Positions 9,401 through 29,401 of a stretch of DNA of 64,000 bases are shown one piece after another. Where the stretch lies: NCBI GenBank assembly GCA_024239075.1, contig JANBVI010000003.1, forward strand, positions 1-64,000, given 5' to 3'. The number at the start of each line of letters is the position of its first letter. The first letter of the stretch is position 1. The notes beneath the pieces were generated by a model. The model was not told where the DNA came from, did not search any database, and saw only the letters and a program-made list of their open reading frames with translations. Origin of the DNA: Fischerella sp. CENA71 (GTDB lineage Bacteria; Cyanobacteriota; Cyanobacteriia; Cyanobacteriales; Nostocaceae). Position numbers and translations under genes: made by a program.

Positions 9401-12400
9401 CAGTATAAGTTGTAGACCAGACAGTAGCTTCAGTTGGTCCATACATATTGAGAACTTGTCCTGAAATAACTTGATTGAGATGATTAGCAAGTTCAACCGA
9501 AAGAGCTTCACCTCCTAACATGAGTTTCTTAAGTGACTGTAGGGGTTTGAGTGTACCTGAATTCAGGATTAACATCCTGATCAAAGATGGTGTACACTGC
9601 AAGTGGGTAACATTGTGTCTAAAAATTAGTTCAGGTAAAGAGTAATTTTGTTTATCTATTTCTTGTTTTCTATTACTGAGTTCCTTGAGTTTATCTATAT
9701 AGTGAAGACCAGATATAACGGAATCAAAATCTAGACCAAAATCAATCAAACATCCTACTTCATTAACTCCTATACGCTTTAACTGCTGGATCAGATCCAA
9801 GCATGTCTCTGGTGTTCCAAAAAGTCCACTACTTTCAAAGTAACGCTCAAAGCCATGTGTCAAAAGAGTTTCCATGTCTTCTTCAGTAAACTCTTCTGAA
9901 TCAATATCTAAATTTAAGCTTTTGGCAAGATTTTTTACCAGCTCGATAGAGCTTCTTAAGTAATTACGGAATGGTTGGCGTACTTTTTCACGGACAAACT
10001 CTTTATCTTCACCTATAAAAGTATGTATCATCAGGGTAACGTGGCCACCTTTGGGATCGTGACCATGTTTTTGCCAAGCATCTCTGTAAATGGCGATTTT
10101 TTCTGCCAGCTGTTCAATACTTTGACCTAGTAGATGCGTAAGTACATTAACACCAATTTCTCCTGCTAATCGAAATGTATCTGAATTAAATGCAGCTGTA
10201 ATCCAAATTGGAAGTTCCCGTTGGATTGGACGTGGAAATGTTGTAATTTTTATATTTTTTGCATTACCATCTTGAAGTTCAACCAACTCGCCCCGCCAAA
10301 GTTGACGAACTGTTTCGAGTCCATGTAGTAGAATTTGCTTTCTGTGTGTATAATTTTCTGGCGCAAGTACAAAATCATTAGCATGCCAGCCTGTAGCAAA
10401 TGATATACCTACTCTACCATTTGATAAGTTGTCAACTACGGCCCATTCTTCAGCAATCCGAATTGGATTATGCAGTGGTAAAACAACACTGCCTGCTCGA
10501 ATTTGAATGTGCTCTGTGACTGCTGCAATGGCTGCACTTGTTACTGCAGAATTAGGAAACAAACCTCCAAAAGCATGAAAGTGACGTTCAGGAGTCCAAA
10601 TTGCTGAAAAGCTATGCTTATCTGCAAACTTTGCACCTTCAATGAGTAATTTATATTTATCTTGAGGCAATTCGTTCTCACCATCACTGGCAAAATAAAA
10701 CAAGCTAAATTCCATTGTTTTATTTGCTGTTTCTGGGTATTGTTCTATAGATGAGAAAGAAAAATCATACTCTGCCTGCACAACAACTCGAAAACCTCGG
10801 GTTAGTGTCCACAGTAACTCTAAGACAGAGATATCAAAAGAAATAGTTGTAACTGCCAACCATGTACCGGGAGAATCATTACCAATGCGAAAATCCATTC
10901 CAGTAAAGAAATTTACAACTTGACCATGCTCAACCATTACACCTTTAGGCTGACCAGTAGATCCTGAAGTGTAAATCACATATGCCAGGTTTTCAGGCAT
11001 CAAGTTACTACAAGGATTTTCCTCTGTTTCGAGAGAGATTGTCTCCCAGTCTGTATCTAGGCAAACCACATATGCTTTATTTTCTGGCAGTTCTGCCACT
11101 AATTTTTGTTGAGTTAAGAGTACTGACAATTGAGAATTCGAGATCATGAAGGCCAAGCGATTCTTAGGATAGGCTGGATCTAAAGGTACATAAGCTCCAC
11201 CTGCTTTGAGAATTGCTAAAAGACCTATCACCATCTCAACAGAACGTTCTATACAGATGCCAACAAGCACATCTGCTCCGACACCTAGTTTCTGCAAGTA
11301 ATGTGCTAATTGATTGGCTCGCTTGTTTAACTCTTGATATGTCAGCTGCTGCTCTTGAAAAATCACTGCTATATTTTCAGGCGATCGCTTCACAGTCTCT
11401 TCAAATTTTTGGTGAATATACTTTTCCTGTAGTAAACTTACGTGAGTGCGATTTTGCTCTACCAATAGCCACTGCTGTTCCGTTTCACTTAACAAAGGCA
11501 GATGTGTAACCAGTTGATGAGAATCAGTAACAATACTTTCAAGTAAAGTTTCAAAGTTATTTGCCATCCGCTCTATGGTGGTTACATTAAATAAATCTGC
11601 ATTGTATTCCCACCATCCTGTCAGACCTTGAGCAGTATTGTTCAATAATATACTGATGTCAAACTTTGAAATACCACTTTCTACTGCTAATGGTCTAAAA
11701 GTTAAATCTTTTAAATTAATCTCTGTTATTGGAGTATCCTGGAAAATGAATAGTATCTGAAATAAAGGAGTGTAACTCAAGCTTCTTTGTGGCTGTAGAG
11801 CTTCTATGATGTGCTCTAGAGGAGCATCCCTATGAGCCTGAGCTTCTAAAAGTGTCTCGTGGACTTGTTCCAATAACCGTTCAAAGCTAATGTTGTTTGT
11901 TATTTTAGTGCGTACAACTATAGTATTAGCAAAAAAGCCTATCAATCCTTCAATGTCAGTAATATCTGAGTTGGCAATAGGCGTACCAACTAAAATATCT
12001 TCCTGCCCACTATATCGGTAAAGCAATATTTGAAATGCTGTTATTAATGTTGTAAAAAGAGTAACTTCTTTACGCTTGCTCAAAGCAACTAATGCTTCAC
12101 TTAGTTTTTTAGGTAGAGCAAAATTGTGATGCGCTCCTCGAAAAGTTTGAACAGCAGGTCGTGGTTGATCAGTAGGGAGTTTTAACAAAGCAGGAGCGTT
12201 GGCAAGCTTTTGTTTCCAATAGTTAAGCTGTTTTTCTAAAAATTTACCAGTTAGCCATTGGTGCTGCCATGCGGCAAAGTCAGCATATTGAACTGGCAAA
12301 TCTGGTAGGGGAGAGGTTTGATTGTTTCTAAAAGCCTCATACAATACTGCTAGTTCGTTGAAAAATACATTGATTGACCTACCATCAAAAACGATGTGAT

Positions 12401-13022
12401 GCATAACTAAAATTAGCACATGCGATCGTTCTCCTAGTTGCAGTAGCCTAAATCTCAACAAGGGATCATTGGCTAGATCAAAGGGATGTTGGACTAGTTC
12501 AGCAGCTAATTGTTGAACTTTGGTAAACTGCTCGATTTTTGAAAAAGTCTGCAAATCTACTATAGGCAGATCTATATTTAGAAATGGGAAAATTTTACAG
12601 ACGGGAGACCCATTAACACTAGGAAAAATTGTTCGTAAGACTTCATGACGCCGAACTATTTCATTGAGAGTTGCTTCTAAAGCCACTATATTAAGTCTGC
12701 CATCAATGCTCAACGCTCCCAACTCATTATAAGGAACACCATCTCCCTCTAATTGTTCTAGAAACCACAATCGCTGTTGGGCAGAAGATAGTGGAATTTT
12801 TCCATCTCTTGCAATCGGTTGCAGTGGTAAAAGAGTAGAAGTATATGCTGATTTGAAACCATTAAGAAAGGTAATAATTTCGTTTTTGCGTTCAGCTAGC
12901 TGTGCACTTAAAATGGGTGTCATTACTTCCTTGGGTGCGCTGTATCGCAAAGAGTTACCATCTACCCAAATATCTATACCTAATTGACGAATATATGACA
13001 ATAGCTCGGGAACGGTTTTCAT
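6456..13022 (-). CDS. NRPS: docking-C-A(monooxygenase, N-MT)-PCP-TE, glycine module
   Basis: A 2188-residue termination module. Order: TubC-type N-terminal docking domain (1-53); condensation domain with HHIVFDG (208-214); adenylation domain (about 535-1815) carrying a bacterial-luciferase-like monooxygenase insert (about 769-1112) and an N-methyltransferase insert (about 1365-1740, EIGCGYG at 1431-1437); PCP with GGHSL (Ser1871); thioesterase with GWSFGG (Ser2001) and terminal GNHF. Reading the specificity positions by alignment to GrsA gives DILQMGMVWK, very close to known glycine codes. A monooxygenase inside a glycine A domain is the layout of MtaG/MelG, which make the terminal amide of myxothiazol-type compounds. 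The start overlaps the preceding NRPS stop by four bases, so the two are translationally coupled. The methyl group should go on the glycine nitrogen. Confidence 0.88.
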   Translation of the reverse strand: MKTVPELLSYIRQLGIDIWVDGNSLRYSAPKEVMTPILSAQLAERKNEIITFLNGFKSAYTSTLLPLQPIARDGKIPLSSAQQRLWFLEQLEGDGVPYNELGALSIDGRLNIVALEATLNEIVRRHEVLRTIFPSVNGSPVCKIFPFLNIDLPIVDLQTFSKIEQFTKVQQLAAELVQHPFDLANDPLLRFRLLQLGERSHVLILVMHHIVFDGRSINVFFNELAVLYEAFRNNQTSPLPDLPVQYADFAAWQHQWLTGKFLEKQLNYWKQKLANAPALLKLPTDQPRPAVQTFRGAHHNFALPKKLSEALVALSKRKEVTLFTTLITAFQILLYRYSGQEDILVGTPIANSDITDIEGLIGFFANTIVVRTKITNNISFERLLEQVHETLLEAQAHRDAPLEHIIEALQPQRSLSYTPLFQILFIFQDTPITEINLKDLTFRPLAVESGISKFDISILLNNTAQGLTGWWEYNADLFNVTTIERMANNFETLLESIVTDSHQLVTHLPLLSETEQQWLLVEQNRTHVSLLQEKYIHQKFEETVKRSPENIAVIFQEQQLTYQELNKRANQLAHYLQKLGVGADVLVGICIERSVEMVIGLLAILKAGGAYVPLDPAYPKNRLAFMISNSQLSVLLTQQKLVAELPENKAYVVCLDTDWETISLETEENPCSNLMPENLAYVIYTSGSTGQPKGVMVEHGQVVNFFTGMDFRIGNDSPGTWLAVTTISFDISVLELLWTLTRGFRVVVQAEYDFSFSSIEQYPETANKTMEFSLFYFASDGENELPQDKYKLLIEGAKFADKHSFSAIWTPERHFHAFGGLFPNSAVTSAAIAAVTEHIQIRAGSVVLPLHNPIRIAEEWAVVDNLSNGRVGISFATGWHANDFVLAPENYTHRKQILLHGLETVRQLWRGELVELQDGNAKNIKITTFPRPIQRELPIWITAAFNSDTFRLAGEIGVNVLTHLLGQSIEQLAEKIAIYRDAWQKHGHDPKGGHVTLMIHTFIGEDKEFVREKVRQPFRNYLRSSIELVKNLAKSLNLDIDSEEFTEEDMETLLTHGFERYFESSGLFGTPETCLDLIQQLKRIGVNEVGCLIDFGLDFDSVISGLHYIDKLKELSNRKQEIDKQNYSLPELIFRHNVTHLQCTPSLIRMLILNSGTLKPLQSLKKLMLGGEALSVELANHLNQVISGQVLNMYGPTEATVWSTTYTVGLSEKSVPIGKSIANVSTYVLDKYYQPVPIGVFGELFIGGLGVARGYLNKPELTAQKFIPDQFSKDPKARMYKTGDLVRYLPDGNIEFVGRIDQQVKIRGFRIELGEIETILEQHPSVQDAVVLAKEDSSEDKQLVAYFVPKPISDSLSDSNGKELLKRQISQWYSLWNQTYESAATNQDTNLKFAGWNNSYTGQPIPIQEMHEWVDVTARRILSLKPNRVLEIGCGYGLLLLQIAPYCTQYWGTDFSEAAINYIQQQLSIQFSSLSQVKLFQRRADNFDQLETEQFDTIIINSVVQYFPSIDYLIEVLESAIKVIKPGGFIFVGDVRSLTLLQAFHLSVELYKASDSSLTSELLSQVKKNMLQEQELVIDPEFFFAFKQKNRNITHIQIEPKRGKYNNEMSKFRYDVILHVGTENINSSSDFIWLDWQNQNLTLDSVSEIIKSTQPKIFGLRRVTNSRLQAEVKALELLSNDQVPKMVGDFRSMLKDVVEKIQEFGVLPEELSNLGNRFSYSIDISWLNNYQDGSYDVVFKHIQCEDKRDNYCSLLQEKKELKPWKAYTNNPLRKQEISHLIPDLRDYLNSHLPEYMVPTVLMALEEMPLTPSGKIDRDTLAKLDIKRSDLINEYIPPRNTLELQLVKIWEEVLNINSIGIRDNFFSLGGHSLLAVRLIALIQKQFGKNLPLATFFQGPTVENLANIIRQQINSFTSSNLVAIQSSGNRIPFFCVHPIAGNVLCYGELAQHLGNEQPFYGLQSIGLNEDQEPLTEIENMADHYIQEIQKIQSQGPYQLGGWSFGGLVAFEMAQRLQKQGQQISLLVLMDTKYPVLKSDKQDNDEANYLNQFIMHIEGIYGKKLLIQHNIFQKLELNEKLNYLWKKVKKIEIYSSITTERDFHKIFNIFKSNSLAEQSYIPQIYPGKITFFQAKERDLRIEKDLNLSWRKLAVKGMDIYEVSGNHFTLLKKPCVQIIAQLLREFLNKESI

Positions 13023-16000
13023 ATTTCTCCTTCCTCTCTTTCAGAATTATTGAAATCACTACGATTTTGCTGATCCGAAGTAGCCCAAAGAGCTATGTCT
13101 ATGTATTCTGCTAAGTCTGCTATAGTAGGACTCTCCCACAATTGACGCAGAGGTAGTTCCACTGGAAATATTTTCCGCAAACGAGCAACAATTTGAGTGG
13201 CTTGTAGAGAGTCTACTCCCAGCATAATTAAGTTATCGTGTATGCCAATTTTTTCTAGAGCTAGTACATCAGCACAGATAACGACTATAGTTTTTTGAGT
13301 AGCAGTGTAGGGAGCCACAAAAGCTGCTGGCAACTCTAAACTAGCTGCATCTGGAATTGGTAAAGACTTGCGGTCTATCTTGCCATTAGGTGTTAATGGT
13401 AGCTTATCTAGAAAAACATAGATACAAGGCACCATATAGCTAGGTAGTTTTTGCTGCAAATAAATACTCAGTTGCTCCGAAGTTAATGCTGATTCATCAG
13501 TTGGAGAAGCTGTAGATCTCAACCACTGTTTTGTTTGCTCTAAGATAATTCTTCCGCCAATAAAACTATGCAGAACAATATGCTTTGATGATGATAAACC
13601 AGATAAATTTCTTAGCTTTTCAAAATTTAAATGTCCAATTGGACATAAACCAACCTCATAATCTGGTGCAGTATCCATCAATAATTGACTCATGTAACCA
13701 GCTTCTAACAGACAAAAGTCTCTAGCCCATCCTCCATACATAGGATTAATTGCATCCATTTGCCCAATAAGAAATAAAGCAAAAGCTGCTTGCTCAAATA
13801 TTGATTTATTTGAGCCACTATAAAGGCTATCTTCAATCTCACTAATGTTAGTAACAGCTTTTACCAATACTAAACGATGTTCTGCTGGGTGATAGTAATA
13901 AATGCCACCTTCCAGTTTTTCTACGCGATTTGGTTTAATTAGTAGGTAAGTTTGGACAGGGTAAAGACTGCCAGCAGAGGGATAGCGATATTTTGGTAAA
14001 GGAATGTGATTGACTTTCATCTGCATTAGACAGCTCAAAAAGAGGCCGAATTGCTCAAATGGGACTGGCTCCTCCAACATTTGGCGATAACTTTGGCGTT
14101 TTAGATAAGTTTGAGTTAAAGTCTGATTAAATTCTGGTCTAATTAGTTCTACAGTTAGGTGATTTTGATCTAATGATTGTAGTCCTGGTTGTCTTAGCTT
14201 AAATTCAATACGCTCTACAGGATCAGTTATCACTCCTTCTAATTTTTGGAATTCAATTGCTTCTACAGGTAGAACTGCTGATTCTTTCTGTAAATGGGCA
14301 GACTTTCTCTCTAAGTTAGAAATAACATAAGCAACTAGTTGTTTTTGCTCTTTTCCTTGCTCAATAGCAGTAACGATTGCATCAGTTATCAATGGATGTT
14401 GTTTCAGTGCAACTTCTATCTCGCCTAATTCAATTCGGTAGCCGTTAACTTTAACTTGAAAATCTTCTCTGCCCAGGAATTCAATATTACCATCCGGTAA
14501 GTAACGCCCTAGATCACCTGTTTTATACAAACGCTCTTTTGTGCGTGGATGTGTAATGAAACTATTTTGAGTTTTTTCTTGATCGCGCCAGTAACCTTTG
14601 GCTAAGCCAACTCCTCCAATGTAAAGTTGTCCACTCACCCATATAGGGCAAGGTTCAAGTAACTCATTGAAAACATAAAAACTTTGGTTTGTTAAAGACC
14701 GACCGTAAGGAATACTTTTCCATTCAGGAGAAATATTCTCGATTGGATAAAAAATAGACCAAATTGATGCCTCAGTTGCCCCTCCTAAACTCACCACCTG
14801 AGCTTTCGGCCATAAAGTTTTGATTTGAGTAGGTAAGTTTAGTGGCAACCAATCTCCGCTTAAAAGAGTCAAACGTAAAGACGAAGGAACTTTGTCTGGG
14901 TGGAGTTTTATATATTCAACAAGCATCTGCATCAAGGCCGGAACCGAGTTCCATAAGGTCACTTGATAGTGCGTCATCAGATCTATCCAGTGGGCTGGGT
15001 CTCTAGTTGCTGTTGCTTTAGGAATAACAATAGTTCCTCCCGCAGCTAAAATACCAAAGATATCGTAAACTGATAAATCGAAGTTCAAAGCTGAAAGTGC
15101 TAGTACACAATCTTGCTCTCCAATTTGGAAGTATTGATTGATATCAAGAATCGTATTCACAGCAGCTTGGTGATCAATCATTACTCCCTTGGGTACACCT
15201 GTTGAGCCAGAAGTATAGATTACATAAGCTAAATCTTTTGGATTTTGAACTGATTCCAAAGTTGATGGACTGTGGTCTGTTAACTTCTCAGTATCAATAT
15301 TTATTCTATGAATATCCGACGACCACTCGAGTTTTACATTGACACACGATTGAGTCAAAACTATTTGAATTTCCCCTTGTTTGAGCAAATACTTTTGGCG
15401 CTCAATTGGTAAATCTGGATCAATTGGTAAATAAGCTGCACCAGAGATTAATATTCCTAGTACAGCAACTACTTGCTCCCAACCTTTTTCCATAACTACA
15501 GCTATCAGACGATTGGGAGAAGCTCCTAGCTGACGCAACTGATGAGCAACTTGATGAGCTAATTTGTTTAACTCAGAGTAAGTCAGGGTGTGCTGGGGTG
15601 AGATTATGGCACAGCGGTCACCACAACGCTCTACCTGTCTTGTAAATAGAGTGTGTAGCATTTCACCAGACAGAGGTGCCTTTGTAGCATTGATCGCGAC
15701 TCGTTGAGACAATTGCTCTGGAGGAACGAGTTGTCTTGTCATTGAGTGCCATACTGGCTCCTGAGTTGCTAGTTGCACCAAAAAATTGCAGTAGGCATTG
15801 AACATATCGTCCAACATTCCAGGGGGGAAAAGGTCTTCTACTGCATCCCAGTTGAAAACTAATCCCCCATCTTGTTCAATGACTTGATGGTCTAGCCAGA
15901 CCTGAGGTGTTTGGCTAATGCCGTAGACAATTTCTCCAAATTTACTTAACCCAGGGCTATTGCTATTTAACGAACCAACACCCAAGGCACTAGTAAAGAC

Positions 16001-17269
16001 TACAGGCATCATTGCCTTTGGAGAGTTACCTTTTTTACGTGCCAATTCTCTTAGAATATGCACTCCATTGACGTAGCGATGATCTAAATCCTGCCAAAGT
16101 TGTTTTTGGAGACGGACAGCACGAGAGACAAAGGATTCATTAACCGTTGAGTTGTCTATCTGCAGCAGTATTACAGAAGTAAAATCCCCAACAATTTGAT
16201 TGACTTGAGGATGAAGTGGTAAACGGTTAAATAGAGTTAGATCAATAGTAAATTGAGGAGATTTGCTCCAAGTTGTCAAAATTTCAGCATAAGCTGCAAG
16301 CAAGACTCCAGAGGGAGTTAAATTAGCATCTGTTGCATATTTTTTTAGCTTTTGCCAATATTCTGTATTCAGCCAAAAAGTGCGACGATGGAACCGGGGC
16401 TGTTTTAAAGAATTGGGATTTTTGGCTAGCGGCAGGTCTGGTGCTGGCGGCAGAGAATCTAGACGGTTAAACCAATAGGCTTGTGAACGCTGATATAGTT
16501 GCGTTCCTACTAGGCGCTCTTCGGCTAAAACGTAATCACGGAATGAAAGTTCCAATTGAGGCAAAACCAATTCTGGGTTCTGGTAGAGCTGACTCCACTC
16601 TTGAAAAAGAAGATGCAAGCTCCCCAAATCAGTTACTAACGCATCAAAGCTAAGATAAAGCCGAAAGAAAGTTTCGCTTAGACGAGCAACTCGAATATCA
16701 AATAAAGGCCATTTGTCAGTTGGCAGCATCTGGTGAGACATTTGTTGACGAATTTCCTCAGTTTTGAACCTGATAGTTTCAGGATCTTCTCCAAGCAAAT
16801 CCAAAACCGAGATTTGGTATAAAGGCACATCTGTGAGAATTTTTTGTGTACCATCTGGCAGTACTACAGTCCGCAACATCTCATGTCGCTCAATCAATTG
16901 CTGCCAAGCACAATTTAGCCGCTCTAGGTCTAAGCCATTACATTCAAGTTCTAAATAGGCATGGGTAGCTACGTTACTTAATTCAAACTCTCCACTACGT
17001 CCCACCCAATAAGCATACTGAATATCGGTAAGAGGAAAGGGTTGATAGCGTTCGTCTAGTACTGGGAGAACCACAGGCAGAGCATCATCATGCATACTAA
17101 CATTACTTTCCCAGAGTAACCTCAGAAGGTCTACCTTATGCTCTGCTATAGAATTACGTAAGTCTAGTGTGAGAGCTTCCTTAGGCGCACGAACACGCAA
17201 ATTATCTGCTTCCGCCCATACCTTAACATTTCGTTTAGAAAGTTCAGTTAAAAGTTCATTCAGGTTCAT
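13019..17269 (-). CDS. NRPS: docking-Cy-A(Ox)-PCP, cysteine to thiazole module
   Basis: A 1416-residue module. It starts with a TubC-type docking domain (1-52). The next domain is a heterocyclisation (Cy) domain: the condensation HHxxxD motif is replaced by DALVTD (209-214). The adenylation domain reads DLYNLSLIWK at the specificity positions, the classic cysteine code. An FMN-dependent oxidase (Ox, nitroreductase/SagB-like, about 1035-1260, with PKYRYPSAGSLYPVQTYLL) is inserted before A10, as in EpoB. A PCP with LGVDSL ends the protein. The expected reaction is condensation of cysteine with the upstream chain, cyclodehydration to thiazoline and oxidation to thiazole. The gene overlaps both neighbours by four bases, and its acidic tail (SEREEGEI) may dock to the next protein. 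Confidence 0.9.
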   Translation of the reverse strand: MNLNELLTELSKRNVKVWAEADNLRVRAPKEALTLDLRNSIAEHKVDLLRLLWESNVSMHDDALPVVLPVLDERYQPFPLTDIQYAYWVGRSGEFELSNVATHAYLELECNGLDLERLNCAWQQLIERHEMLRTVVLPDGTQKILTDVPLYQISVLDLLGEDPETIRFKTEEIRQQMSHQMLPTDKWPLFDIRVARLSETFFRLYLSFDALVTDLGSLHLLFQEWSQLYQNPELVLPQLELSFRDYVLAEERLVGTQLYQRSQAYWFNRLDSLPPAPDLPLAKNPNSLKQPRFHRRTFWLNTEYWQKLKKYATDANLTPSGVLLAAYAEILTTWSKSPQFTIDLTLFNRLPLHPQVNQIVGDFTSVILLQIDNSTVNESFVSRAVRLQKQLWQDLDHRYVNGVHILRELARKKGNSPKAMMPVVFTSALGVGSLNSNSPGLSKFGEIVYGISQTPQVWLDHQVIEQDGGLVFNWDAVEDLFPPGMLDDMFNAYCNFLVQLATQEPVWHSMTRQLVPPEQLSQRVAINATKAPLSGEMLHTLFTRQVERCGDRCAIISPQHTLTYSELNKLAHQVAHQLRQLGASPNRLIAVVMEKGWEQVVAVLGILISGAAYLPIDPDLPIERQKYLLKQGEIQIVLTQSCVNVKLEWSSDIHRINIDTEKLTDHSPSTLESVQNPKDLAYVIYTSGSTGVPKGVMIDHQAAVNTILDINQYFQIGEQDCVLALSALNFDLSVYDIFGILAAGGTIVIPKATATRDPAHWIDLMTHYQVTLWNSVPALMQMLVEYIKLHPDKVPSSLRLTLLSGDWLPLNLPTQIKTLWPKAQVVSLGGATEASIWSIFYPIENISPEWKSIPYGRSLTNQSFYVFNELLEPCPIWVSGQLYIGGVGLAKGYWRDQEKTQNSFITHPRTKERLYKTGDLGRYLPDGNIEFLGREDFQVKVNGYRIELGEIEVALKQHPLITDAIVTAIEQGKEQKQLVAYVISNLERKSAHLQKESAVLPVEAIEFQKLEGVITDPVERIEFKLRQPGLQSLDQNHLTVELIRPEFNQTLTQTYLKRQSYRQMLEEPVPFEQFGLFLSCLMQMKVNHIPLPKYRYPSAGSLYPVQTYLLIKPNRVEKLEGGIYYYHPAEHRLVLVKAVTNISEIEDSLYSGSNKSIFEQAAFALFLIGQMDAINPMYGGWARDFCLLEAGYMSQLLMDTAPDYEVGLCPIGHLNFEKLRNLSGLSSSKHIVLHSFIGGRIILEQTKQWLRSTASPTDESALTSEQLSIYLQQKLPSYMVPCIYVFLDKLPLTPNGKIDRKSLPIPDAASLELPAAFVAPYTATQKTIVVICADVLALEKIGIHDNLIMLGVDSLQATQIVARLRKIFPVELPLRQLWESPTIADLAEYIDIALWATSDQQNRSDFNNSEREEGEI

Positions 17270-20200
17270 ATTGTTATTTCCTCTAAATCCTCACTGAGTT
17301 CGTGGGACTGAGACTTCCATTGGACTAGACTTGCCAATGCAAATTGTTGCAGTAGATCGGAAGCTAGTTGTTTAATGCTAATTCCTTCACTATATCTTTG
17401 TAAGGGTATATCTAAACCTAAATCAGTCTTAATCCGATTTTTAATCTCCATGCCCATCAAAGAGTCAAGCCCTAACTCATGTAGGGATTGATATGGGTCA
17501 GGTTGACTAGATGAAGGGAGTTCTAAAACTTTAGCGATTTGAACTTGAAGATAAGCAATCAAAAATTCTAAGCGTCTGTCGAGACTTGCACTATTTAATT
17601 GCTTCACTATATCTGACACCACACCATTGTTTGATGAGGGATCATAATGTTGAGTTAGTACACCTTTGTTTTGAAGATACTTTTGGTGTTGTTTGACTAA
17701 AACTTTCAAAAGTTTTGGCAGTAGTTGTTTTTGAGTTTCCGAAAAATTACTTGCTTTTTCCAACTGTTCAGCTAGTTTTTCAATATCTCCTGCATTGAGA
17801 AGATCAATAATTGGAGTTTGACTTTTTGTCTCAGAGATAGCTTCTACTTTTGAATATCCTTTCTCAACTCTCTCAAGCCAGTAACGTTCTCTCTGAAAAG
17901 GATATGTCGGTAAGCTGATTCGTTGGTGATGATATTCCTGGCTAAAGTTTGACCAATTGATCGGTATCCCTTGTACATACAAATGCCCCAAACTCTCTAG
18001 CATCTGCTGCCAATCTTCCCGTCCTTGACGCAGACTTGCTAACCAAATTCCTGCTCTCTTCGGTAAGCATTGCCGTCCTATCCCCAGCAAAATTGGTTTA
18101 GGTCCTACTTCTACAAAGACTTCATATCCTTCTTTATAAAGTGTCTGCATCCCATCTGCAAATCGCACCGTCTGGCTGAGATGACGACACCAATACTCAG
18201 ATGTAATTACTTCGGTTGTTAATGGTTTACCAGTGACATTAGAAATCAGCTTTATCTTAGGTGTTGCATAAGTAGTACTGGCAGCTATCTCACTAAACTC
18301 TGTCAAAATTGGCTCTACTAGCGGGGAGTGAAAAGCATGGAATGTTTTTAGTTTTTTCGTTTTGATTCCGGCTGCCTTTAAAGTAGCACAAACTTTCTCA
18401 ATTATCTTTTGTTCACCGGTAATCACAGTGTTTTGTGGGCTATTGAGGGCTGCAATAGCTATCTTCTGCTCTTGCGTCAGCACAGCTTGAATCGATGCTT
18501 CATCAGCAAACACGGCTACCATCTGACCGTTAGCTGGTAGAGTTTGCATTAAGGAAGCATACTTGCTAATTAGTTTCAGCGCTTCTTTTAGACTAAAAAC
18601 TCCAGCCACACAAGCAGCAACATATTCTCCTACACCATGTCCCATCACGGCTGTTGGCTCTACTCCCCAAGATAGCCATAGCTGGGTCAAGGCATATTCG
18701 AGGGCAAACAGAGCTGATAGTTGGGTATAAGCAGTTTGCTCAAGAGAAACCGTCTGACCTGGTTCTCTATAGATAAATTTTAGGAACGATTTCCCTGTAT
18801 AAGAACACAAAATTTCATCGCAGTAGTTAAGTGCTTGCCGAAAAACTGGCTGGGTAGAGTAAAGTTGACGTCCCATACCAATGTATTGAAAGCCTTGACC
18901 AGTATAGAGAAATGCTACTTTAGGTAGCTTTCTTTTGGTTACCTTGCCACTTATCAATCCACTGGACTTCTTCCCAGCAATAAAATCTTTCAGACACTTG
19001 TTTAACTCTGCATTAGTTTTAGATACTACAGCAAGTCGATACTCAAAATGTACACGTCCTGTGTTGCTCGTAAAACAAATATCTCCTAGTGATGCTTGTG
19101 AGTTAGCTTGAAGATACACTTCATAAAGTTGTGCTAATTGCTTAAGTGCCTTTTCACTTTTTGCTGACAGAGTAGTAATATTGAAAGACCGTTTATACTC
19201 ATTAAGTACTTTTACTTCATCAATAGTAGGAGCTTTTTCTAGAATCAAATGGCAATTAGTTCCGCCAAATCCAAAAGTATTTATACTAGCAAAACAGCTA
19301 TTTTTTTCTGATTGCCATGGTGTCAGATATTTAGGAATTAAGAGCGGCTCATTTTGTTGTATGGAAATATATGAATTGAGGTTACTGAAATTCAAATGAG
19401 GTGGAATTTCCCCATGTTGCATTGCCAGTATTACCTTAATTAAGCTGGCAATTCCAGAAGCAGCTTCCAAATGACCAATATTTGTCTTAACTGATCCAAT
19501 CCAACAGGGTTGAGATGGAGACCGATCCAGCATCAAAACTGCTTTTATAGAATTGACTTCAATTGAATCCCCTAAGGAGGTACCTGTACCCTGAGTTTCG
19601 ACGTAACTTATTTGGGTTGGTGAGACTTGGGCATTTTTTAGTGCTTGGCGTATGACTTCTTGTTGTGCTGGTCCATTAGGTGCCGTAAGTCCATTACTAA
19701 GACCATCCTGATTAACTGCTGATCCTCTAATTAGTGCCAGAATATTATCATTGTCACGAAGTGCATCCGAGTAACGCTTGAGAAGGACTAGACCACAGCC
19801 TTCTCCTCGCACATATCCGTCAGCATTAGCATCGAAAGTTTTACAACGACCTTCAGCTGAAAGTATACCTGATTGAGACAGAAGAATAGACCATTCTGGA
19901 GATAACATCATACTCACGCCGCCAGCTAGAGCCGCATTGCACTCTCCAAGGCGCAAACTTTGGCAAGCTAAATGCACCGCCACTAGGGATGATGAACAAG
20001 CCGCATCTAAGGCTACACTAGGACCACGAAAATTATATGTATAAGACAAGCGGTTGGCAGCTATACAATGAGAGTTGCCAGTACTGGAGTAAACATTTGA
20101 ACTGCTGAGATTTTGTAATTGAATCCAGGAGTAATCATAACTGTTGATACCAATGAACACTCCAGTATTGCTACCAGACAAGGTATTTGGTGCGATTCCA

Positions 20201-20511
20201 GCATTTTCCATCGTTTCCCAGCTAACCTCTAAAAGAAACCGTTGCTGGGGATCCATAGTCTTAGCTTCACGTGGGGAAATTCTGAAGAAATCGGGGTCAA
20301 AGTTGTCTACTTGTTGTATGAAAGCGCCTTTGTAAATCCCCTTTTCTCTTAACTTATCCAGGTCTAAATTGTTATCAACATTAATATTCCAACGCCCCGG
20401 TGGCACTTCAGAGATTGAATGTGAACCTTCCCTTAACAAACGCCACAAAGCTTCAGGATTTTCAGCACCGGGAAAACGGCATCCTATACCAATAATTGCT
20501 ATTGCTTCCAT
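17266..20511 (-). CDS. PKS: KS(His to Gln)-AT(Ser to Gly)-ACP
   Basis: A 1081-residue type I PKS protein. The KS keeps Cys172 (DAACSSSL) and His347 (TNIGHLEA), but the HGTGT histidine is glutamine (Gln307, VETQGTGT). The AT motif GHSxGE reads GHGVGEY, so catalytic Ser is Gly626, and the conserved arginine motif RGRLM reads KYASLM. The AT therefore should not load malonyl. After a linker there is an ACP with LGLDSLMGME near the C terminus. No KR, DH, ER or MT domain is present. The C-terminal tail LEEITI is acidic and probably docks to the TubC-type domain of the next protein. The stop overlaps the next start. The KS may act only as a transacylating, non-elongating domain. Confidence 0.87.
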   Translation of the reverse strand: MEAIAIIGIGCRFPGAENPEALWRLLREGSHSISEVPPGRWNINVDNNLDLDKLREKGIYKGAFIQQVDNFDPDFFRISPREAKTMDPQQRFLLEVSWETMENAGIAPNTLSGSNTGVFIGINSYDYSWIQLQNLSSSNVYSSTGNSHCIAANRLSYTYNFRGPSVALDAACSSSLVAVHLACQSLRLGECNAALAGGVSMMLSPEWSILLSQSGILSAEGRCKTFDANADGYVRGEGCGLVLLKRYSDALRDNDNILALIRGSAVNQDGLSNGLTAPNGPAQQEVIRQALKNAQVSPTQISYVETQGTGTSLGDSIEVNSIKAVLMLDRSPSQPCWIGSVKTNIGHLEAASGIASLIKVILAMQHGEIPPHLNFSNLNSYISIQQNEPLLIPKYLTPWQSEKNSCFASINTFGFGGTNCHLILEKAPTIDEVKVLNEYKRSFNITTLSAKSEKALKQLAQLYEVYLQANSQASLGDICFTSNTGRVHFEYRLAVVSKTNAELNKCLKDFIAGKKSSGLISGKVTKRKLPKVAFLYTGQGFQYIGMGRQLYSTQPVFRQALNYCDEILCSYTGKSFLKFIYREPGQTVSLEQTAYTQLSALFALEYALTQLWLSWGVEPTAVMGHGVGEYVAACVAGVFSLKEALKLISKYASLMQTLPANGQMVAVFADEASIQAVLTQEQKIAIAALNSPQNTVITGEQKIIEKVCATLKAAGIKTKKLKTFHAFHSPLVEPILTEFSEIAASTTYATPKIKLISNVTGKPLTTEVITSEYWCRHLSQTVRFADGMQTLYKEGYEVFVEVGPKPILLGIGRQCLPKRAGIWLASLRQGREDWQQMLESLGHLYVQGIPINWSNFSQEYHHQRISLPTYPFQRERYWLERVEKGYSKVEAISETKSQTPIIDLLNAGDIEKLAEQLEKASNFSETQKQLLPKLLKVLVKQHQKYLQNKGVLTQHYDPSSNNGVVSDIVKQLNSASLDRRLEFLIAYLQVQIAKVLELPSSSQPDPYQSLHELGLDSLMGMEIKNRIKTDLGLDIPLQRYSEGISIKQLASDLLQQFALASLVQWKSQSHELSEDLEEITI

Positions 20512-20552
20512 AATACAAATATTTAAACTATTAAACTTCTGACTTTGATTTT

Positions 20553-23258
20553 TTAGATATCAGGATAAATTTTTGTAGACTGGCTTTGTGAAGTATGCAA
20601 TCTTTTATTCTTAGTTGCGTTTCTCTGCAACCAACAATGTTGCCTTTGAAAAGGATAAGTGGGCAGTTGTAGACGGCGACGAGGGTAATCTTGATCAAAA
20701 CCAGACCAATCTACTGACACACTACGCACATATAATTGTGCTAAACTCTCCAGCATAGTTTGCCAATCCTCCAGTTCTGGATAGAGACTAGGCAACCAAG
20801 CACCTACTGATTCTGGTAAGCATTGCCGACCCATCGCCAACATAGTCGGTTTCGGACTAATTTCTAAAAATAACTCATGCCCTTGCTGATATAAAGTCTG
20901 TACACCAGCTGCAAATTGCATATGCTGACGCATATATCGATACCAGTATTCTGGGGTTGCTATTTCATCTGTAGCCAACTGTCCAGTGATATTAGCAATC
21001 AATTTTATTTGTGGAGGTGAGTAAGTGACACTACTGATTACTTGTGCAAATGCTGCCAGCCTTGGCTCTATTAACGGGGAGTGGAAAGTTTGAGGAATAG
21101 ATAATTCTATAGTATTGGCTCCTTCTAACTCTAGGACTACTGCAATATTGTTTAGAAGATGACGCTCGCCAGAAATTCCAATACCTTGGAGACTATTAAT
21201 GTTGCTGATCGTTGCTTGTTGAGTGTAGGGCTGAATGACTGCTCTTCCCTTGGCTTCATTTGACATTATCGTTATCATTTCACATTCTAGGTTTAGAGCC
21301 TGCATTAAACGTCCTCGTTCTACAATCAGCTTTAACCCATCTTCTAAACTAAATACTCCTGCTACACAAGCAGCAACATACTCTCCCACATCATAACCCA
21401 TCACTGCACTTGGTTCTATTCCCCAGGATTTCCATAACTGGAAAAGAGCATATTCTAAAGCAAATAAAGCTGGTTGAGCATATGCTGTTTCATCCAAGGT
21501 AGAATTTAACCCTGGCTGAGGGTATAAAACTTCAATTAGAGGCTTATCTAAATAAGGAAGTAAAATTTCACTACAGTATTCAAGACTTTGGCGAAAAGTG
21601 GGTTGGGTATCATACAGTTGACGTCCCATATCAACATACTGGGAACCCTGACCAGTAAAGAGATAGGCTATCTTAGGGCGCTTTCGACTAGACAGCTGTC
21701 TTTTGACTATTCTGGAAGTCTCTTTAGCAGAGATAAAAGCCTGTAACTGCTTGCATAGTTCTGAGGTAGATTCAGCAACAATTGCTAGGCGATGGTCAAA
21801 ATGCGATCGCCCAGTATTCGCAGTGAAGCAAACAGATGCTAATGATATACTTGGATGCAACGCTAAGAAACTAGCATAACTTTGTGCCAGTTCGAGCAAG
21901 GCTTTCTCACTTCTTGCCGAAATAGTGAGTATGTGCAGGGGACGTTCAATCTCACTATCTGTCGTAATAGTTACTGCGGCTGCTTCTTCCAAAATTACAT
22001 GACAATTGGAGCCACCAAAACTAAATGAACTTACTCCGGCAAAACAACGTTTTGTAGCAGTAGACCAAGGTTGGGATTCAGTAGGAATGAAAAACGGAGT
22101 TCCTTCCAGAGAAATATACGGATTCAGTTGCTTCAAGTGCAGGTGAGGCGGAATTTCTCTATGTTGTAGTGAGAGTATCACCTTAATCATACTAGCAATA
22201 CCAGCAGCTGCTTCCAGATGACCAATATTAGTTTTAACCGACCCAATCCAACAAGGTTGCTTTTGTGAGCGGCCTTGCATTAATACTGTTTTCAAAGATT
22301 TAATTTCAATAAGGTCTCCTAAAGAAGTACCAGTACCATGAGCCTCCACATAACTAATTTCATCTGGTCGCAAGCAAGCATTTTTTAGGGCTTGACAGAT
22401 GACCGCTTGTTGTGCGGAGCCATTGGGTGCCGTAAGACCGTTACTCAAACCATTTTGATTAACTGCTGAACTTCTAATGATTGCCAGAATATTGTCTCCA
22501 TCCTTATAAGCATCAGAAAGGCGCTTTAGAATGACTACACCACAGCCTTCTCCCCGAACATACCCATCAGCACTAGCATCAAACGTCTTACACCGACCAT
22601 CAGCAGCCATCATGCGAGCTTGAGAGAAAGTGATAGTCGGCTCTGGAGTCAGCATTAAGTTAACCCCTGCAACTATGCATAAATTAGATTCCCCATTCTG
22701 CAAGCTTTGACGAGCGAAATGGACTGCAACTAAGGAAGAAGAACAAGCAGTGTCTACTACTATACTAGGTCCTTGTAAAGCCAATATATAGGACAAGCGG
22801 TTAGCAGCCATGGAAGCAGCAGTACCCGTACCGCTATATGCATCTATTCCGTAGTAATCTCTATATAGAAGCCTATGGTAGTCACCATTGCTAATACCAA
22901 CAAACACTCCGGTTTGAGTATGAGCTAACTTTTCCGGCACTATTGCGGCATTTTCTAGAGCTTCCCAAGCTACCTCTAACAACAGTCTTTGCTGTGGGTC
23001 TATTTGTTCAGCCTCACGAGGAGAAATTCCAAAGAAGCTAGGATCGAACCTATCCACTTGTTGTAGAAAACCTCCCCAGCGGGTATTCATTTTCCCTGGT
23101 GTAACTGGCTTTGCATCATAAAAGGCGTCAATATCCCATCGGTCTTTTGGAACCTCAGTGATAGCATCCACTCCATTGTGCAAGAGCTGCCAGAATAATT
23201 CTGGGTTGTTAGCACCAGGAAAACGACAGCCAAGACCGATAACTGCTACATGTTCCAC
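20553..23258 (-). CDS. PKS: KS-AT(Ser to Asp) without carrier domain
   Basis: A 901-residue type I PKS protein. The KS triad looks intact: Cys172 (DTACSSSL), His307 (EAHGTGT) and His347 (TNIGHLEA). The AT motif reads GYDVGEY, so the nucleophilic serine is Asp623 and the preceding histidine is tyrosine; the arginine motif ERGRLM is retained. The usual post-AT linker ends in TYPFQRQHCW, and the protein stops about 25 residues later with no ACP or reductive domains. It must therefore use a carrier from another protein: the ACP of the following PKS or one of the two stand-alone carriers. It lies 41 bases before the next PKS gene and 46 bases after the methyltransferase gene. Confidence 0.87.
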   Translation of the reverse strand: MEHVAVIGLGCRFPGANNPELFWQLLHNGVDAITEVPKDRWDIDAFYDAKPVTPGKMNTRWGGFLQQVDRFDPSFFGISPREAEQIDPQQRLLLEVAWEALENAAIVPEKLAHTQTGVFVGISNGDYHRLLYRDYYGIDAYSGTGTAASMAANRLSYILALQGPSIVVDTACSSSLVAVHFARQSLQNGESNLCIVAGVNLMLTPEPTITFSQARMMAADGRCKTFDASADGYVRGEGCGVVILKRLSDAYKDGDNILAIIRSSAVNQNGLSNGLTAPNGSAQQAVICQALKNACLRPDEISYVEAHGTGTSLGDLIEIKSLKTVLMQGRSQKQPCWIGSVKTNIGHLEAAAGIASMIKVILSLQHREIPPHLHLKQLNPYISLEGTPFFIPTESQPWSTATKRCFAGVSSFSFGGSNCHVILEEAAAVTITTDSEIERPLHILTISARSEKALLELAQSYASFLALHPSISLASVCFTANTGRSHFDHRLAIVAESTSELCKQLQAFISAKETSRIVKRQLSSRKRPKIAYLFTGQGSQYVDMGRQLYDTQPTFRQSLEYCSEILLPYLDKPLIEVLYPQPGLNSTLDETAYAQPALFALEYALFQLWKSWGIEPSAVMGYDVGEYVAACVAGVFSLEDGLKLIVERGRLMQALNLECEMITIMSNEAKGRAVIQPYTQQATISNINSLQGIGISGERHLLNNIAVVLELEGANTIELSIPQTFHSPLIEPRLAAFAQVISSVTYSPPQIKLIANITGQLATDEIATPEYWYRYMRQHMQFAAGVQTLYQQGHELFLEISPKPTMLAMGRQCLPESVGAWLPSLYPELEDWQTMLESLAQLYVRSVSVDWSGFDQDYPRRRLQLPTYPFQRQHCWLQRNATKNKRLHTSQSQSTKIYPDI

Positions 23259-23304: not shown

Positions 23305-24192
23305 TTACTTACGGGGATTATTTAGCCTCTGCATTGTAATACATGAAACATTCATTGTTCCTGAATGGAAACCAATAATAGAAAGGCTCAAATATTTTTC
23401 ATATCTGGCAACTATTTCCTCTCCGACTAGATAGACTGCTTTAGAACGGTTTGCCTTTAGCCTTTTGAGCCAAGTTTTCAGCGTGCGTACGTAGTGTTTA
23501 CGGTAATTGCGAAACGCTACAACTTCAAAAAGTTTATCAGTTGCCTGAAAGATTTCTGACTGGCGAGCTAGATCTGATTCTGGAAAAACTTGTTCAGCAA
23601 AAAACTGACTAAAGTCCTCTTTTTGGGAATTCTCATAGACATTAGTTTGGAGTGATATCCAACCTCCAGGCTTCAACCAGTCATGGCAGCGCAAAAAAAA
23701 CTCACGATAGCCTGCTACTTTTTCTTCTGGAGAAAGTTCCAACTTAGCAAAGTGTTCAAAAACCTCCAATGAAATAATCCCGTCATAATGTGCCTTTGGA
23801 GAGTGTTCTGTCCAACTTTCTAAATGTACTTCTATTTTTGGATGTTCCCAAGCTAAAATGCATTCTGCATGAGCCTTATTTAAAGTAATCCCCACAGCAG
23901 TTTCAACACCATGAACGTCTACAAGACGTCTCAACAGTGAACCCCAACCACACCCTATATCCAACACTCGCTTAGCGCCTTTGACTCTTGCCTGTTCAAT
24001 ATGAAAATCAAGTTTTCGCATCTGTGCAGTTTCGAGGGCATCAAATCCTTCATTTTCCTCCCAAAATGCACTTGAATAAGTACGTGTTGGATCGAGCCAG
24101 AGAGAGAAAAATTCGTTACTAACGTCGTAATGATGGCGAAGTGCCTCTGATGAAGCACCGGGATTAAGAATTTTGACAGTGTTCGTAGCCAT
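23305..24192 (-). CDS. SAM methyltransferase, cyclopropane-fatty-acid-synthase-like
   Basis: A 295-residue class I methyltransferase. The N-terminal HHYDVSNEFFSLWLDPTRTYSSAFW (positions 20-44) and the SAM-binding loop VLDIGCGWGSL (about 85-95) are those of the CFA synthase/CMAS family, although the protein is shorter than full CFA synthases. That family methylates or cyclopropanates double bonds in acyl chains; relatives also serve as C- or O-methyltransferases in natural-product clusters. It sits directly before the PKS genes, in a cluster that also encodes a desaturase. Action on the desaturated chain or on a beta-keto intermediate is plausible but not shown. Confidence 0.82.
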   Translation of the reverse strand: MATNTVKILNPGASSEALRHHYDVSNEFFSLWLDPTRTYSSAFWEENEGFDALETAQMRKLDFHIEQARVKGAKRVLDIGCGWGSLLRRLVDVHGVETAVGITLNKAHAECILAWEHPKIEVHLESWTEHSPKAHYDGIISLEVFEHFAKLELSPEEKVAGYREFFLRCHDWLKPGGWISLQTNVYENSQKEDFSQFFAEQVFPESDLARQSEIFQATDKLFEVVAFRNYRKHYVRTLKTWLKRLKANRSKAVYLVGEEIVARYEKYLSLSIIGFHSGTMNVSCITMQRLNNPRK

Positions 24193-25083: not shown

Positions 25084-25185
25084 CCAATTTCATATGAAGA
25101 TGCATAGAATCGCTGGACTCAAAACTCCTAGTATACAAAGATTTTAGACTTCAATATTCTGTGCAAGCTCACAAAGAATTGGTAT
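25081..25185. mobile_element. MITE-like element with ATACCAATT ends
   Basis: A 105-bp AT-rich segment starts with ATACCAATTT and ends with AATTGGTAT, giving perfect 9-bp terminal inverted repeats. Its right end reaches into the carrier protein gene and supplies that gene's last codons and stop. No clear target-site duplication is visible. Confidence 0.5.
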
Positions 25186-25498
25186 GAGCTAAATGCTGTG
25201 ATAGAGCCTCAATATTGGGGTAATCATAGATGAGAGTTGGATCAAGCTCATATCCCAGCCAATCCTCTAGGTCACCAATCAAGCCTACTGCTGCCGAAGA
25301 ATCTAAACCGTAACGTTCAAAGGCAGTTTTGACATCTACCTGATCCGGTTCTATTCCCATCTGTTGTGCTAGATGGATGATTAACCAAGCTTGAATCTCT
25401 GCTAATGTGGGCAGAGCTTTATGAACCTCTTTACAATCGATATTGTTATTTACTACTTCTGTAGCAATCTGAGTAAATTGAGCATTTTGAATTTCCAT
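25169..25498 (-). CDS. Acyl carrier protein, CylB-type (copy 2)
   Basis: A 109-residue stand-alone carrier protein with the phosphopantetheine site YGLDSSAAVGL (Ser67). It shares with the 2956-3267 carrier the LDSSAAV motif, the following EDWLG and the YDYP segment. It lies between the desaturase gene and the PKS block, in the same strand run as FAAL and the second halogenase. The FAAL probably loads this carrier, so that desaturation and chlorination take place on it. The last few codons and the stop come from a MITE-like insertion, so the original C terminus may have been slightly different; the core helices are intact. Confidence 0.88.
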   Translation of the reverse strand: MEIQNAQFTQIATEVVNNNIDCKEVHKALPTLAEIQAWLIIHLAQQMGIEPDQVDVKTAFERYGLDSSAAVGLIGDLEDWLGYELDPTLIYDYPNIEALSQHLAHTNSL

Positions 25499-25557: not shown

Positions 25558-26526
25558 CTACTTAAAAACCCTTTTGGACTCTATCATTCCTGCCGTAGGA
25601 GCTTTAACTAAGTAGACCAAGCCAAGCTTTTCAAGAGCGTTAACGACCCAGTAACCTGGATCTAATTGCCACCAGCTTAGTCCAAATTTTGCAGAATTAG
25701 GGAAGGCATGATGGTTATTATGCCAAGCTTCTCCTAGAGTGGGTATTGCTAGCCAAGAATTATTTGTACTTTGCTCACGAGTATCAAAGGAACGATTACC
25801 ATAGAGGTGAGTAATTGAGTTAATGCTAAGCCCAAAAATATATGAGAGGAAAAGACGAACACAGCCTCCCCAAATAAATCCAGAAATGAAACCTATACTT
25901 GTCCCTTTTATCATTCCTCCTAGAATGGTAGGAATAGCATAACTCAAGAAGAACCAAAAGTAGTAAAGCCGATTGATCTTTAGAATCACAGGATCGTGAA
26001 GCAGGTCTTTGGCAAAAAAGAAAGTATTGGTGAGTTCATGAGTAAACGTCCAGCCAACATAAGAATGCCACAGCCCTGAAATTTTACCTAGCGTTTTATC
26101 TCCATTGAAATAGGGTGAATGAGGATCACCTGGTTGATCACTGTACTGGTGATGTCGTCGATGATTACTTACCCAATAAATCAGAGGACCTTGACAAGCC
26201 ATAGATCCAAGTATGGCAAGGATGACTCTGACGGTAGTATTAGTCTGAAAAGCAGAGTGGGCAAAATACCTATGAAAACCTACAGTAATTCCAATAACGG
26301 TCAAGACATACATACTTGACAACAACCCTATCTCTACTAAACCAACACTTAGGTAGGGAACCATTGCAACTGCAACTATTGAACCTAATAAAGGGATTAG
26401 GATTATAGCCAAAGCATGGAGCTTTTGTGGAATTTTCAGGCGATCACTCTTAATTGTTATTTTCTGCCTCTTAGGTGAGTCCACAAGGAACTCCTCTGTT
26501 GGTATATCATTCGGCTGCATCGACAT
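25558..26526 (-). CDS. Membrane fatty-acyl desaturase (acyl-CoA/lipid Delta9-type)
   Basis: A 322-residue integral membrane di-iron desaturase. The three histidine boxes are HRYFAH (85-90), HRRHH (122-126) and HNNHH (near 270), the canonical Delta9 desaturase set. Hydrophobic pairs at about 38-80 and 190-230 form the membrane segments. It lies 59 bases upstream of the carrier protein gene and beside the halogenase and FAAL genes, so the acyl starter on the carrier is its likely substrate, although membrane-lipid chains cannot be excluded. The resulting double bond could be the target of the CMAS-like methyltransferase. Confidence 0.9.
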   Translation of the reverse strand: MSMQPNDIPTEEFLVDSPKRQKITIKSDRLKIPQKLHALAIILIPLLGSIVAVAMVPYLSVGLVEIGLLSSMYVLTVIGITVGFHRYFAHSAFQTNTTVRVILAILGSMACQGPLIYWVSNHRRHHQYSDQPGDPHSPYFNGDKTLGKISGLWHSYVGWTFTHELTNTFFFAKDLLHDPVILKINRLYYFWFFLSYAIPTILGGMIKGTSIGFISGFIWGGCVRLFLSYIFGLSINSITHLYGNRSFDTREQSTNNSWLAIPTLGEAWHNNHHAFPNSAKFGLSWWQLDPGYWVVNALEKLGLVYLVKAPTAGMIESKRVFK

Positions 26527-28888: not shown

Positions 28889-29401
28889 CTAATCGATAAT
28901 ATCGATAGCAGGAGAAAAAATAGGATGAGAACCAAATTGGTTTCTTTTGACTGCTTGTCCCGTAGTAATATAATACTCATAACCCTTCAAAACAGAATCT
29001 AAGTAATTCTCAAGTGAACGACGAATAAAATGTAAATAACCTGAGCGAGAAGTTTCTAAAGTTGTTGGAAGAATATTTATTATGATTGAAATATTTAGTA
29101 AACTTTCATAATTTTCTTCTATACTGCTAATACGAAATATCACATTTACTTGAACATTTATGCTTTGAATGGTAAGGTTCAAGTCATAACCAACACCCTC
29201 AATCCATTTTGTGAAATATCGAGTAGCAACTTTCCCACTATAAAAATATACAGTATCTTCAGAGCCAATACCTGGCCATTTTTCCACAGAATTTTTTTCA
29301 CAGAAAGGGTGACAATAGCTCAAATTACCAGGTTTCGAAATTGCCTCCCAGACTTTTTCTCTGGGTGCACTAATCTGTCTGCTTAATGAAATGTTTATCA
29401 T
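28889..29401 (-). CDS. SRPBCC (START-like) family protein
   Basis: A 170-residue protein. The opening ISLSRQISAPREKVWEAISKPGNLSYCHPFC is the first strand and helix signature of the SRPBCC/polyketide cyclase-like fold, a deep hydrophobic cavity used for binding or cyclising lipids and polyketides. No catalytic residue can be pointed out. It sits between the FAAL and halogenase genes on the same strand, so binding or modification of the lipid starter or the final product is possible. It could also be an unrelated lipid-binding protein. Confidence 0.65.
   Translation of the reverse strand: MINISLSRQISAPREKVWEAISKPGNLSYCHPFCEKNSVEKWPGIGSEDTVYFYSGKVATRYFTKWIEGVGYDLNLTIQSINVQVNVIFRISSIEENYESLLNISIIINILPTTLETSRSGYLHFIRRSLENYLDSVLKGYEYYITTGQAVKRNQFGSHPIFSPAIDIID

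Follow-up and report, generated by a model that had tools for sequence, protein, structure and literature searches.

A putative non-elongating relay module beside a ketosynthase with a degenerate acyltransferase in a fatty-acyl PKS-NRPS cluster of Fischerella

Two neighbouring polyketide synthase (PKS) genes of Fischerella sp. CENA71 encode proteins that have each lost catalytic residues, which raises the question of whether they form one working module between them or do separate work. A preliminary description of this DNA had proposed the former, a split module in which the ketosynthase (KS) of one protein (PKS1) acts on the acyl carrier protein (ACP) domain of the other (PKS2) with malonyl supplied in trans, for example by FabD; non-elongating transacylases were offered as the alternative. 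The window, that is, the whole stretch of 64,000 nucleotides analysed (positions 1 to 64,000 of contig JANBVI010000003.1, assembly GCA_024239075.1), comes from a 7.47 Mb genome and carries both genes in a cluster of 14, all on the minus strand. They are listed here with domains assigned by Pfam and with KS0 and AT0 denoting KS and acyltransferase (AT) domains that have lost a catalytic residue:

1512..2918, minus strand: second AurF-like (CylC-like) protein (AurF match E 7e-4, under the cut-off)
2956..3267, minus strand: second stand-alone ACP, ACP b (DLDSSAAV)
3482..4879, minus strand: cytochrome P450
4960..6282, minus strand: cupin_8/JmjC-like protein, an oxygenase candidate
6456..13022, minus strand: NRPS2, with TubC_N, C, an A domain split by a luciferase-like monooxygenase and accompanied by a methyltransferase, PCP and TE
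13019..17269, minus strand: NRPS1, with TubC_N, Cy-type condensation, A, nitroreductase-like Ox and PCP
17266..20511, minus strand: PKS2, KS0-AT0-ACP (open reading frame, Pfam, codons and CurL alignment)
20553..23258, minus strand: PKS1, KS-AT0 without ACP (open reading frame, Pfam, codons and CurL alignment)
23305..24192, minus strand: CMAS-type (cyclopropane synthase-like) methyltransferase
25169..25498, minus strand: stand-alone ACP a (GLDSSAAV), the proposed FAAL partner
25558..26526, minus strand: fatty acid desaturase
27105..28478, minus strand: AurF-like (CylC-like) dimetal oxygenase/halogenase candidate (AurF match E 3e-4, weak and under the cut-off)
28889..29401, minus strand: SRPBCC (Polyketide_cyc2-like) protein (weak match, under the cut-off)
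29519..31351, minus strand: FAAL, with AMP-binding and DIP2-like AMP domains, the proposed starter loader

The cluster has the features of FAAL-CylC type I PKS clusters, namely FAAL, ACP and CylC-like genes with PKS genes downstream; the CylC-like assignment draws on family profile (the weak AurF match) and on gene position. The same CylC-like family adjoins a stand-alone ACP, together with a FAAL where the stretch reaches that far, in loci L065, L099, L159, L164 and L178-L183. In NRPS1, the Cy and Ox roles are what we take the Pfam Condensation and Nitroreductase matches to mean, by analogy with other systems. For NRPS2, considered together with L055/L056 (G388 C141 from 28740), we take the luciferase-like insert in the A domain, the methyltransferase and the TE to be reminiscent of amide-forming myxothiazol-type terminations.

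The frames of PKS1 (901 aa, GTG start) and PKS2 (1081 aa) are both open. Read on the nucleotides of the minus strand, Asp623 of PKS1 (GYDVGE) is encoded by GAT at 21390-21392, Gly626 of PKS2 (GHGVGE) by GGT at 18634-18636 and Gln307 of PKS2 (VETQGTGT) by CAG at 19591-19593, in each case as the preliminary description had reported. The KS-AT of CurL (4MZ0), the nearest solved structure by sequence for both proteins, possesses the AT Ser and the HGTGT His, and alignment by phmmer set Asp623 and Gly626 opposite the Ser of its GHSVGE and Gln307 opposite that His, so both ATs do lack the nucleophilic Ser. The claimed loss of the RGRLM Arg from the second AT was likewise borne out, Ser standing in its place in PKS2; PKS1 retains the Arg, and its AT0 keeps the FHSP His despite Asp623. 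The PKS1 KS is intact (Cys172, His307, Lys342 and His347), while the PKS2 KS0 retains its acyl-accepting Cys (DAACSSS), Lys and NIGH His. Pfam matched KS and AT in both proteins and PP-binding in PKS2 only (residues 988-1050, with an LGLDSL motif); domains and residues thus agree with the described pairing of an intact KS lacking an ACP with an ACP-bearing protein that carries Gln307. PKS1 has no N-terminal extension ahead of its KS, PKS2 ends in an acidic C-terminal tail, SEDLEEITI, that is the same in all three species available, and the KS-AT parts of the two share 54% identity. Judged by these residues, neither AT should work as a transferase, and decarboxylation should be beyond the PKS2 KS.

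For comparison, the collected loci, mostly fetched for their likeness to PKS1 or PKS2, yielded 148 distinct full-length AT domains outside the cluster, 147 with Ser and one with Gly at this position, and 171 distinct full-length KS domains, of which 165 read C-H-H, three C-H-Y, two C-Q-H and one S-H-H (domains of 85% of profile length or less, truncated ATs among them, were dropped). The single full-length Ser-less AT, GHGVGE, belongs to the second module of a Chloroflexi PKS (L105). The residue losses in PKS1 and PKS2 are not due to chance.

The cluster was found in two of the four other same-genus genomes searched, Fischerella sp. PCC 9431 and Pelatocladus maniniholoensis HA4357-MV3, and the PKS1 ortholog was missing from the remaining two (best matches 63% and 41%). 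Both orthologous clusters keep the Asp, Gly and Gln substitutions in open frames. All three species have uninterrupted frames for PKS1, PKS2 and NRPS1 and an identical GLDSL motif in the PKS2 ACP. Orthologs with intact GHSxGE or HGTGT motifs were sought as a refutation and none was found, and because two separate same-genus assemblies keep all three substitutions, we rejected sequencing error as their source. All 14 cluster proteins tested match in PCC 9431 at 97-99%, and in HA4357-MV3 nine of the 14 have matches over all or almost all of their length, at 96-99%. In the latter, NRPS2 is 95% identical over the first 768 residues and 69% over 1098-1907, its frame stopping at residue 1989; the luciferase-like insert is absent and nothing matched the TE part, which means that these close relatives differ at the end of the line. 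The contig of this assembly runs out as the cupin gene begins (at 71%), and the available sequence contains no orthologous copy of the P450, ACP b or the second CylC-like gene. In a scan of 84,980 species, the two same-genus orthologs stood at 96-97% and the next segment at 68% within the best 80 of 411 relatives; among the matches to PKS2 listed for 388 genomes of the order, with the two best candidates per genome scored, none beyond the window exceeded 60%.

To gauge constraint within the genus, amino-acid-variable sites were set against synonymous-only variable sites over the three species, taking 0.75 as the neutral fraction (codon-derived values, 0.70-0.76). The PKS1 KS was far below neutral (11:20, p 4e-6) whereas the PKS1 AT0 was neutral (17:5, p 0.68), the two differing in site counts (p 0.049) and ratio (p 0.005). 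Both the KS0 (5:9, p 0.002) and the AT0 of PKS2 (2:5, p 0.013, or p 0.056 at a neutral fraction of 0.65, on 7 variable sites) were below neutral, and the AT0s of PKS1 and PKS2 differed from each other (site counts p 0.0006; ratio p 0.03). On the few sites at hand, constraint was not visible in the KS-AT linker (7:3) and post-AT part (7:1) of PKS1 or in the post-AT part (10:4) and ACP (4:1) of PKS2. Pairwise dN/dS agreed where computable, one of the three pairs for the PKS1 AT0 having no synonymous change; purifying selection extended to A and Ox, and dN/dS was low in the FAAL, CylC-like and CMAS genes. In PKS1 it is the KS that is maintained, beside an AT0 indistinguishable from neutral drift; in PKS2 it is likewise the KS, and the AT may be maintained as a scaffold.

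The 388 genomes of the order were then scanned for the His-to-Gln KS motif with the AT disregarded, because choosing loci by the AT would introduce bias; the scan covered the Gln form of KS0, whose Asn counterpart is seen in L155 and L156. Eleven genomes matched, two of them (G104, G121) through repeat proteins that were rejected as KS and nine, the window's included, through PKS modules. The AT is degenerate in all nine (GHG, GYD, GHD, GQG, GHN three times, GNN and GQS), with Ser lost in eight and the GQS module keeping it in a truncated AT. Each of the nine has its own ACP and lies near a CylC-like gene and a stand-alone ACP; a FAAL is visible at eight, the stretch of the ninth ending before that place, and a TubC_N protein comes next in eight, the ninth having a fused TE (the annotation profiles come from a small number of proteins in these loci and detect only the domains included). 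Four KS0s (G278, G309, G365 and G330) are the sole KS in the ~20 kb read, four follow a complete KS-AT(Ser)-KR-ACP module, and the one in the window follows PKS1. The G278, G309 and G365 modules lead into an NRPS that carries C, A, KR, ACP and TE, like that of lactylate-type clusters. C-terminal tails read DWIE(L/I)E(L/I) in L164, L181 and L182 and are SEIFEI-like in most others. Since all nine combine a degenerate AT with an ACP and a CylC-like neighbour, eight precede a TubC_N protein and four are the only KS, the KS0-AT0-ACP architecture looks like that of a non-elongating relay, one that hands on an acyl chain to a partner docked to it. In glycolipid-type clusters the relay is followed by a protein of about 620 aa (L099:12947-14821, with similar proteins in L151, L156, L178 and others), for which TubC_N was the only Pfam match in the one copy scanned, that of L099.

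A Ser-less AT motif occurred at 16 places in 12 of the 388 genomes, two of these places being the window's, and the Ser-type motif in 170 (searched as codon pattern WSN, which admits other residues too). Loci with a Ser-less AT were either FAAL-ACP-CylC-like clusters with KS0-AT0-ACP, or with KS-AT0 plus a discrete ACP, followed by a TubC_N protein, or longer PKS clusters in which an intact KS, a dead AT and an ACP form a module (L152, L154, L160, L163 and the C44 locus of the window genome). The reverse relationship fails, a dead AT beside a C-H-H KS being common among loci chosen by the AT, and because such modules exist, absence of elongation cannot be read from a dead AT by itself. At the C44 locus (L165; ORF 7456, 1469 aa, C44:105955-110361), an AT reading GDGIGE is joined to a C-H-H KS with KR and ACP matched and sits between two modules with AT Ser; if it elongates, this module would need malonyl in trans.

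Phylogenetically, the PKS1 KS falls in a starred clade of the KS tree with first modules of several FAAL-CylC clusters, namely L018 (in L183), L019 (L159), L020 (L156), L021 (L178) and L065 (L065). Relays of the ngl type form a starred clade of their own (nine rows, 100/98), and L164 and L180-L182, the other relay group, form another (100/100), inside the PKS1 clade; PKS2 belongs to neither, on a long branch (0.6). Another KS tree placed PKS2 beside L065/L066 (91/55) with low support and a long-branch warning, and PKS1 and PKS2 were not sisters in any KS tree. As the relay groups occupy different clades with PKS2 outside both, the trees argue firmly for at least two origins of the KS0-AT0-ACP relay and make a third, that of PKS2, likely, its long branch keeping this last origin from being firm. 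PKS1 stood apart from the L082 and L099 groups in the free tree and a single clade of KS-AT0 proteins without ACP was not rejected (AU p 0.113), so that these proteins may represent one or several groups. The KSs of PKS1 and PKS2 group with cis-AT cyanobacterial modules in trees that held no named trans-AT reference KS. PKS modules of Thiotrichaceae, the giant sulfur bacteria and their kin (L076, L080, L107), share 57-61% identity with PKS1 in their best segment, which suggests transfer between groups.

Several related systems have been described. The published nostochloroside (ngl) cluster of Nostoc punctiforme comprises a FAAL, a CylC homologue and a type I PKS and is drawn with a KS*, that is, a KS with an inactivating active-site mutation; its authors call for in vitro study of the ngl PKS to follow up their own hypothesis on chain length (PMC10849952). 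The ngl product is a chlorinated glycolipid, whereas in the window PKS1 precedes the relay and an azole-type NRPS follows it; judged by architecture, L065/L066 and others match ngl, with KS0-AT0-ACP last. The chlorosphaerolactylate (cly) and nocuolactylate (noc) clusters combine FAAL, ACP, CylC homologue and type I PKS with a depsipeptide-type NRPS (PMC12184294, PMC11837247, PMC8406957); TubB/TubC-like docking domains are reported for NocP/NocQ, and direct fusion of fatty acids with hydroxy acids is the role proposed for NocQ and ClyF (PMC12184294). L164, L181 and L182, of cly/noc type by architecture, differ from the window in having no PKS1-like protein and an NRPS with A and KR. Loss of the HGTGT His in KS0 modules is described for terminal KSs, with altered HANGT motifs (PMC4661987) comparable to the HAVGT of L099, L101, L151 and L161, and KS0 has been presented as a mediator of ACP-to-ACP transfer (PMC7618002). 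PKS2 shares with such modules a retained Cys, a replaced HGTGT His (in three genomes) and its own ACP, but differs from known non-elongating KS0 modules in its fused AT remnant and in a KS that groups with cis-AT cyanobacterial modules. A description of paired KS His and AT Ser loss in such clusters was not found in a weak search, with most subscription journals outside it.

Taken together, the best explanation as a whole, which we consider probable, is a fatty-acid azole operon with PKS2 as a non-elongating relay and PKS1 as a free-standing KS; it is built on residues, conservation, co-occurrence, phylogeny and selection, from which we infer the catalytic steps, the docking and the product. 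The FAAL would charge ACP a with a fatty acid, and the CylC-like, desaturase and CMAS-type enzymes may, going by their families, modify the chain there. The PKS2 KS Cys would take up the acyl chain and transfer it, with no condensation, to the ACP of the same protein, since the decarboxylation His is lost and no extender is needed, and the acidic C-terminal tail would dock on the TubC_N of NRPS1 (a pairing assigned by family profile and position), which would then take the chain. In G278, G309, G365 and G330 the relay would draw the chain straight from the loaded ACP, because no other KS is there. Joint loss of the His and Ser, with Cys and ACP kept, ahead of a TubC-docked partner is how a transfer module should look, and PKS2 is most likely a non-elongating relay. 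For this protein the transacylase alternative of the preliminary description is the better half. Two observations run counter to it: the PKS2 AT0 is full length and conserved though a relay does not need it (its constraint being weak evidence), and no within-genus constraint is visible in the PKS2 ACP (4:1) or the stretch preceding it (10:4).

The product would be a fatty-acid-derived azole. Fischerazoles A-C, reportedly described in a ChemRxiv preprint of 2022 (cited in PMC11837247), are a likely product family, as far as the name, the C16:0 starter and the presence of the cluster in PCC 9431 indicate. In PMC11837247, C16:0 is the hypothesised FAAL substrate for fischerazoles, and C12:0 is given for nocuolactylates on the basis of in vitro data and for chlorosphaerolactylates as a hypothesis. 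Testing of fischerazole compounds is reported in PMC11880066, and no passage on biosynthesis was found in PMC9557163.

As a free-standing KS, PKS1 would have kept only that domain, its AT being vestigial, and would either add one extender supplied in trans or shuttle the acyl chain between carrier proteins, two options that we hold to be about equally probable. Both PKS proteins have an integrated AT by Pfam, with residues lost, and the 14 cluster proteins scanned held no further AT and no trans-AT gene. Among 14 AT matches in the window genome only one is stand-alone, a 293-aa protein on contig C32 with GHSLGE, which from its length and motif we call FabD and which is the sole stand-alone candidate for the supply. 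Elongation with malonyl supplied in trans is plausible, because the C-H-H set of the PKS1 KS is full and ngl-type clusters have an elongating module in the same place. PKS1 could equally act in transfer only, as the C-H-Y proteins of L082, L087, L103 and L162 suggest for their kind. These last are KS-AT0 proteins without ACP in which the KS reads NIGY for NIGH; beside them, in the two loci annotated (L082, L162), lie a CMAS-type gene, a stand-alone ACP and desaturases. Only tentatively do we extend the relay reading to a general course of events, in which cyanobacteria repeatedly turn a cis-AT module into a KS0-AT0-ACP relay, through loss of the KS His and the AT Ser, at the hand-over from FAAL chain to TubC, and in which the PKS1 KS is shedding its AT by drift while elongating with FabD malonyl, a transition from cis-AT to trans-AT in progress.

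The split module, in which the PKS1 KS would condense the fatty chain and malonyl carried by the PKS2 ACP, FabD working in trans and the KS0 and AT0s serving as scaffold only, is in our judgement doubtful. It accords with the intact, constrained triad of the PKS1 KS, the missing ACP of PKS1, the usual GLDSL type of the PKS2 ACP and the lone stand-alone AT of the genome, and KS-AT0 proteins without ACP do adjoin discrete ACPs in L099, L101, L151 and L161. However, since KS0-AT0-ACP proteins exist without a PKS1-like partner, four clusters having no other KS and four placing the relay behind a KS-AT(Ser)-KR-ACP module, the KS0 defect needs no such partner; moreover, the PKS2 KS0 is constrained as the PKS1 KS is, which is unexpected if it is idle, and the PKS1 tail has no nameable docking feature. 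The presumably dead ATs, the PKS2 KS0, their retention in orthologs and the availability of a FabD-like AT stand from the original proposal, but complementation is not supported as the main reading, given relays that lack a PKS1-like partner and the conserved KS0 and AT0 of PKS2. A KS/KS0 heterodimer, with PKS1 catalysing and PKS2 giving the ACP in the manner of a ketosynthase and its chain length factor, appears improbable. The similarity of the two KS-AT parts, the neighbouring genes and the absence of an N-terminal docking segment from either protein would suit it; chain length factors and KSQ loading KSs, however, have the active-site Cys replaced by Gln, and the Cys is present in both PKS1 and PKS2, and relays exist with no second KS in the stretch read. 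That the cluster is simply decaying, its losses reflecting pseudogenisation with no function left, is very improbable: the neutral PKS1 AT0 would fit, but the frames open in three species, the purifying selection and low dN/dS described above and the matching pattern in other lineages all oppose it.

With PKS2 read as a relay and PKS1 as a free-standing KS, the relay trick seems to have evolved more than once. If this is true, counting each KS as one extension gives wrong structures for FAAL-CylC clusters, and joint loss of the HGTGT His and the AT Ser, with an ACP and then a TubC_N partner, would serve as a sequence rule for transfer modules. PKS1 would provide a case of AT decay beside a conserved KS, and the relays would constitute a natural set of adaptors linking fatty-acyl carriers to NRPSs, useful in engineering.
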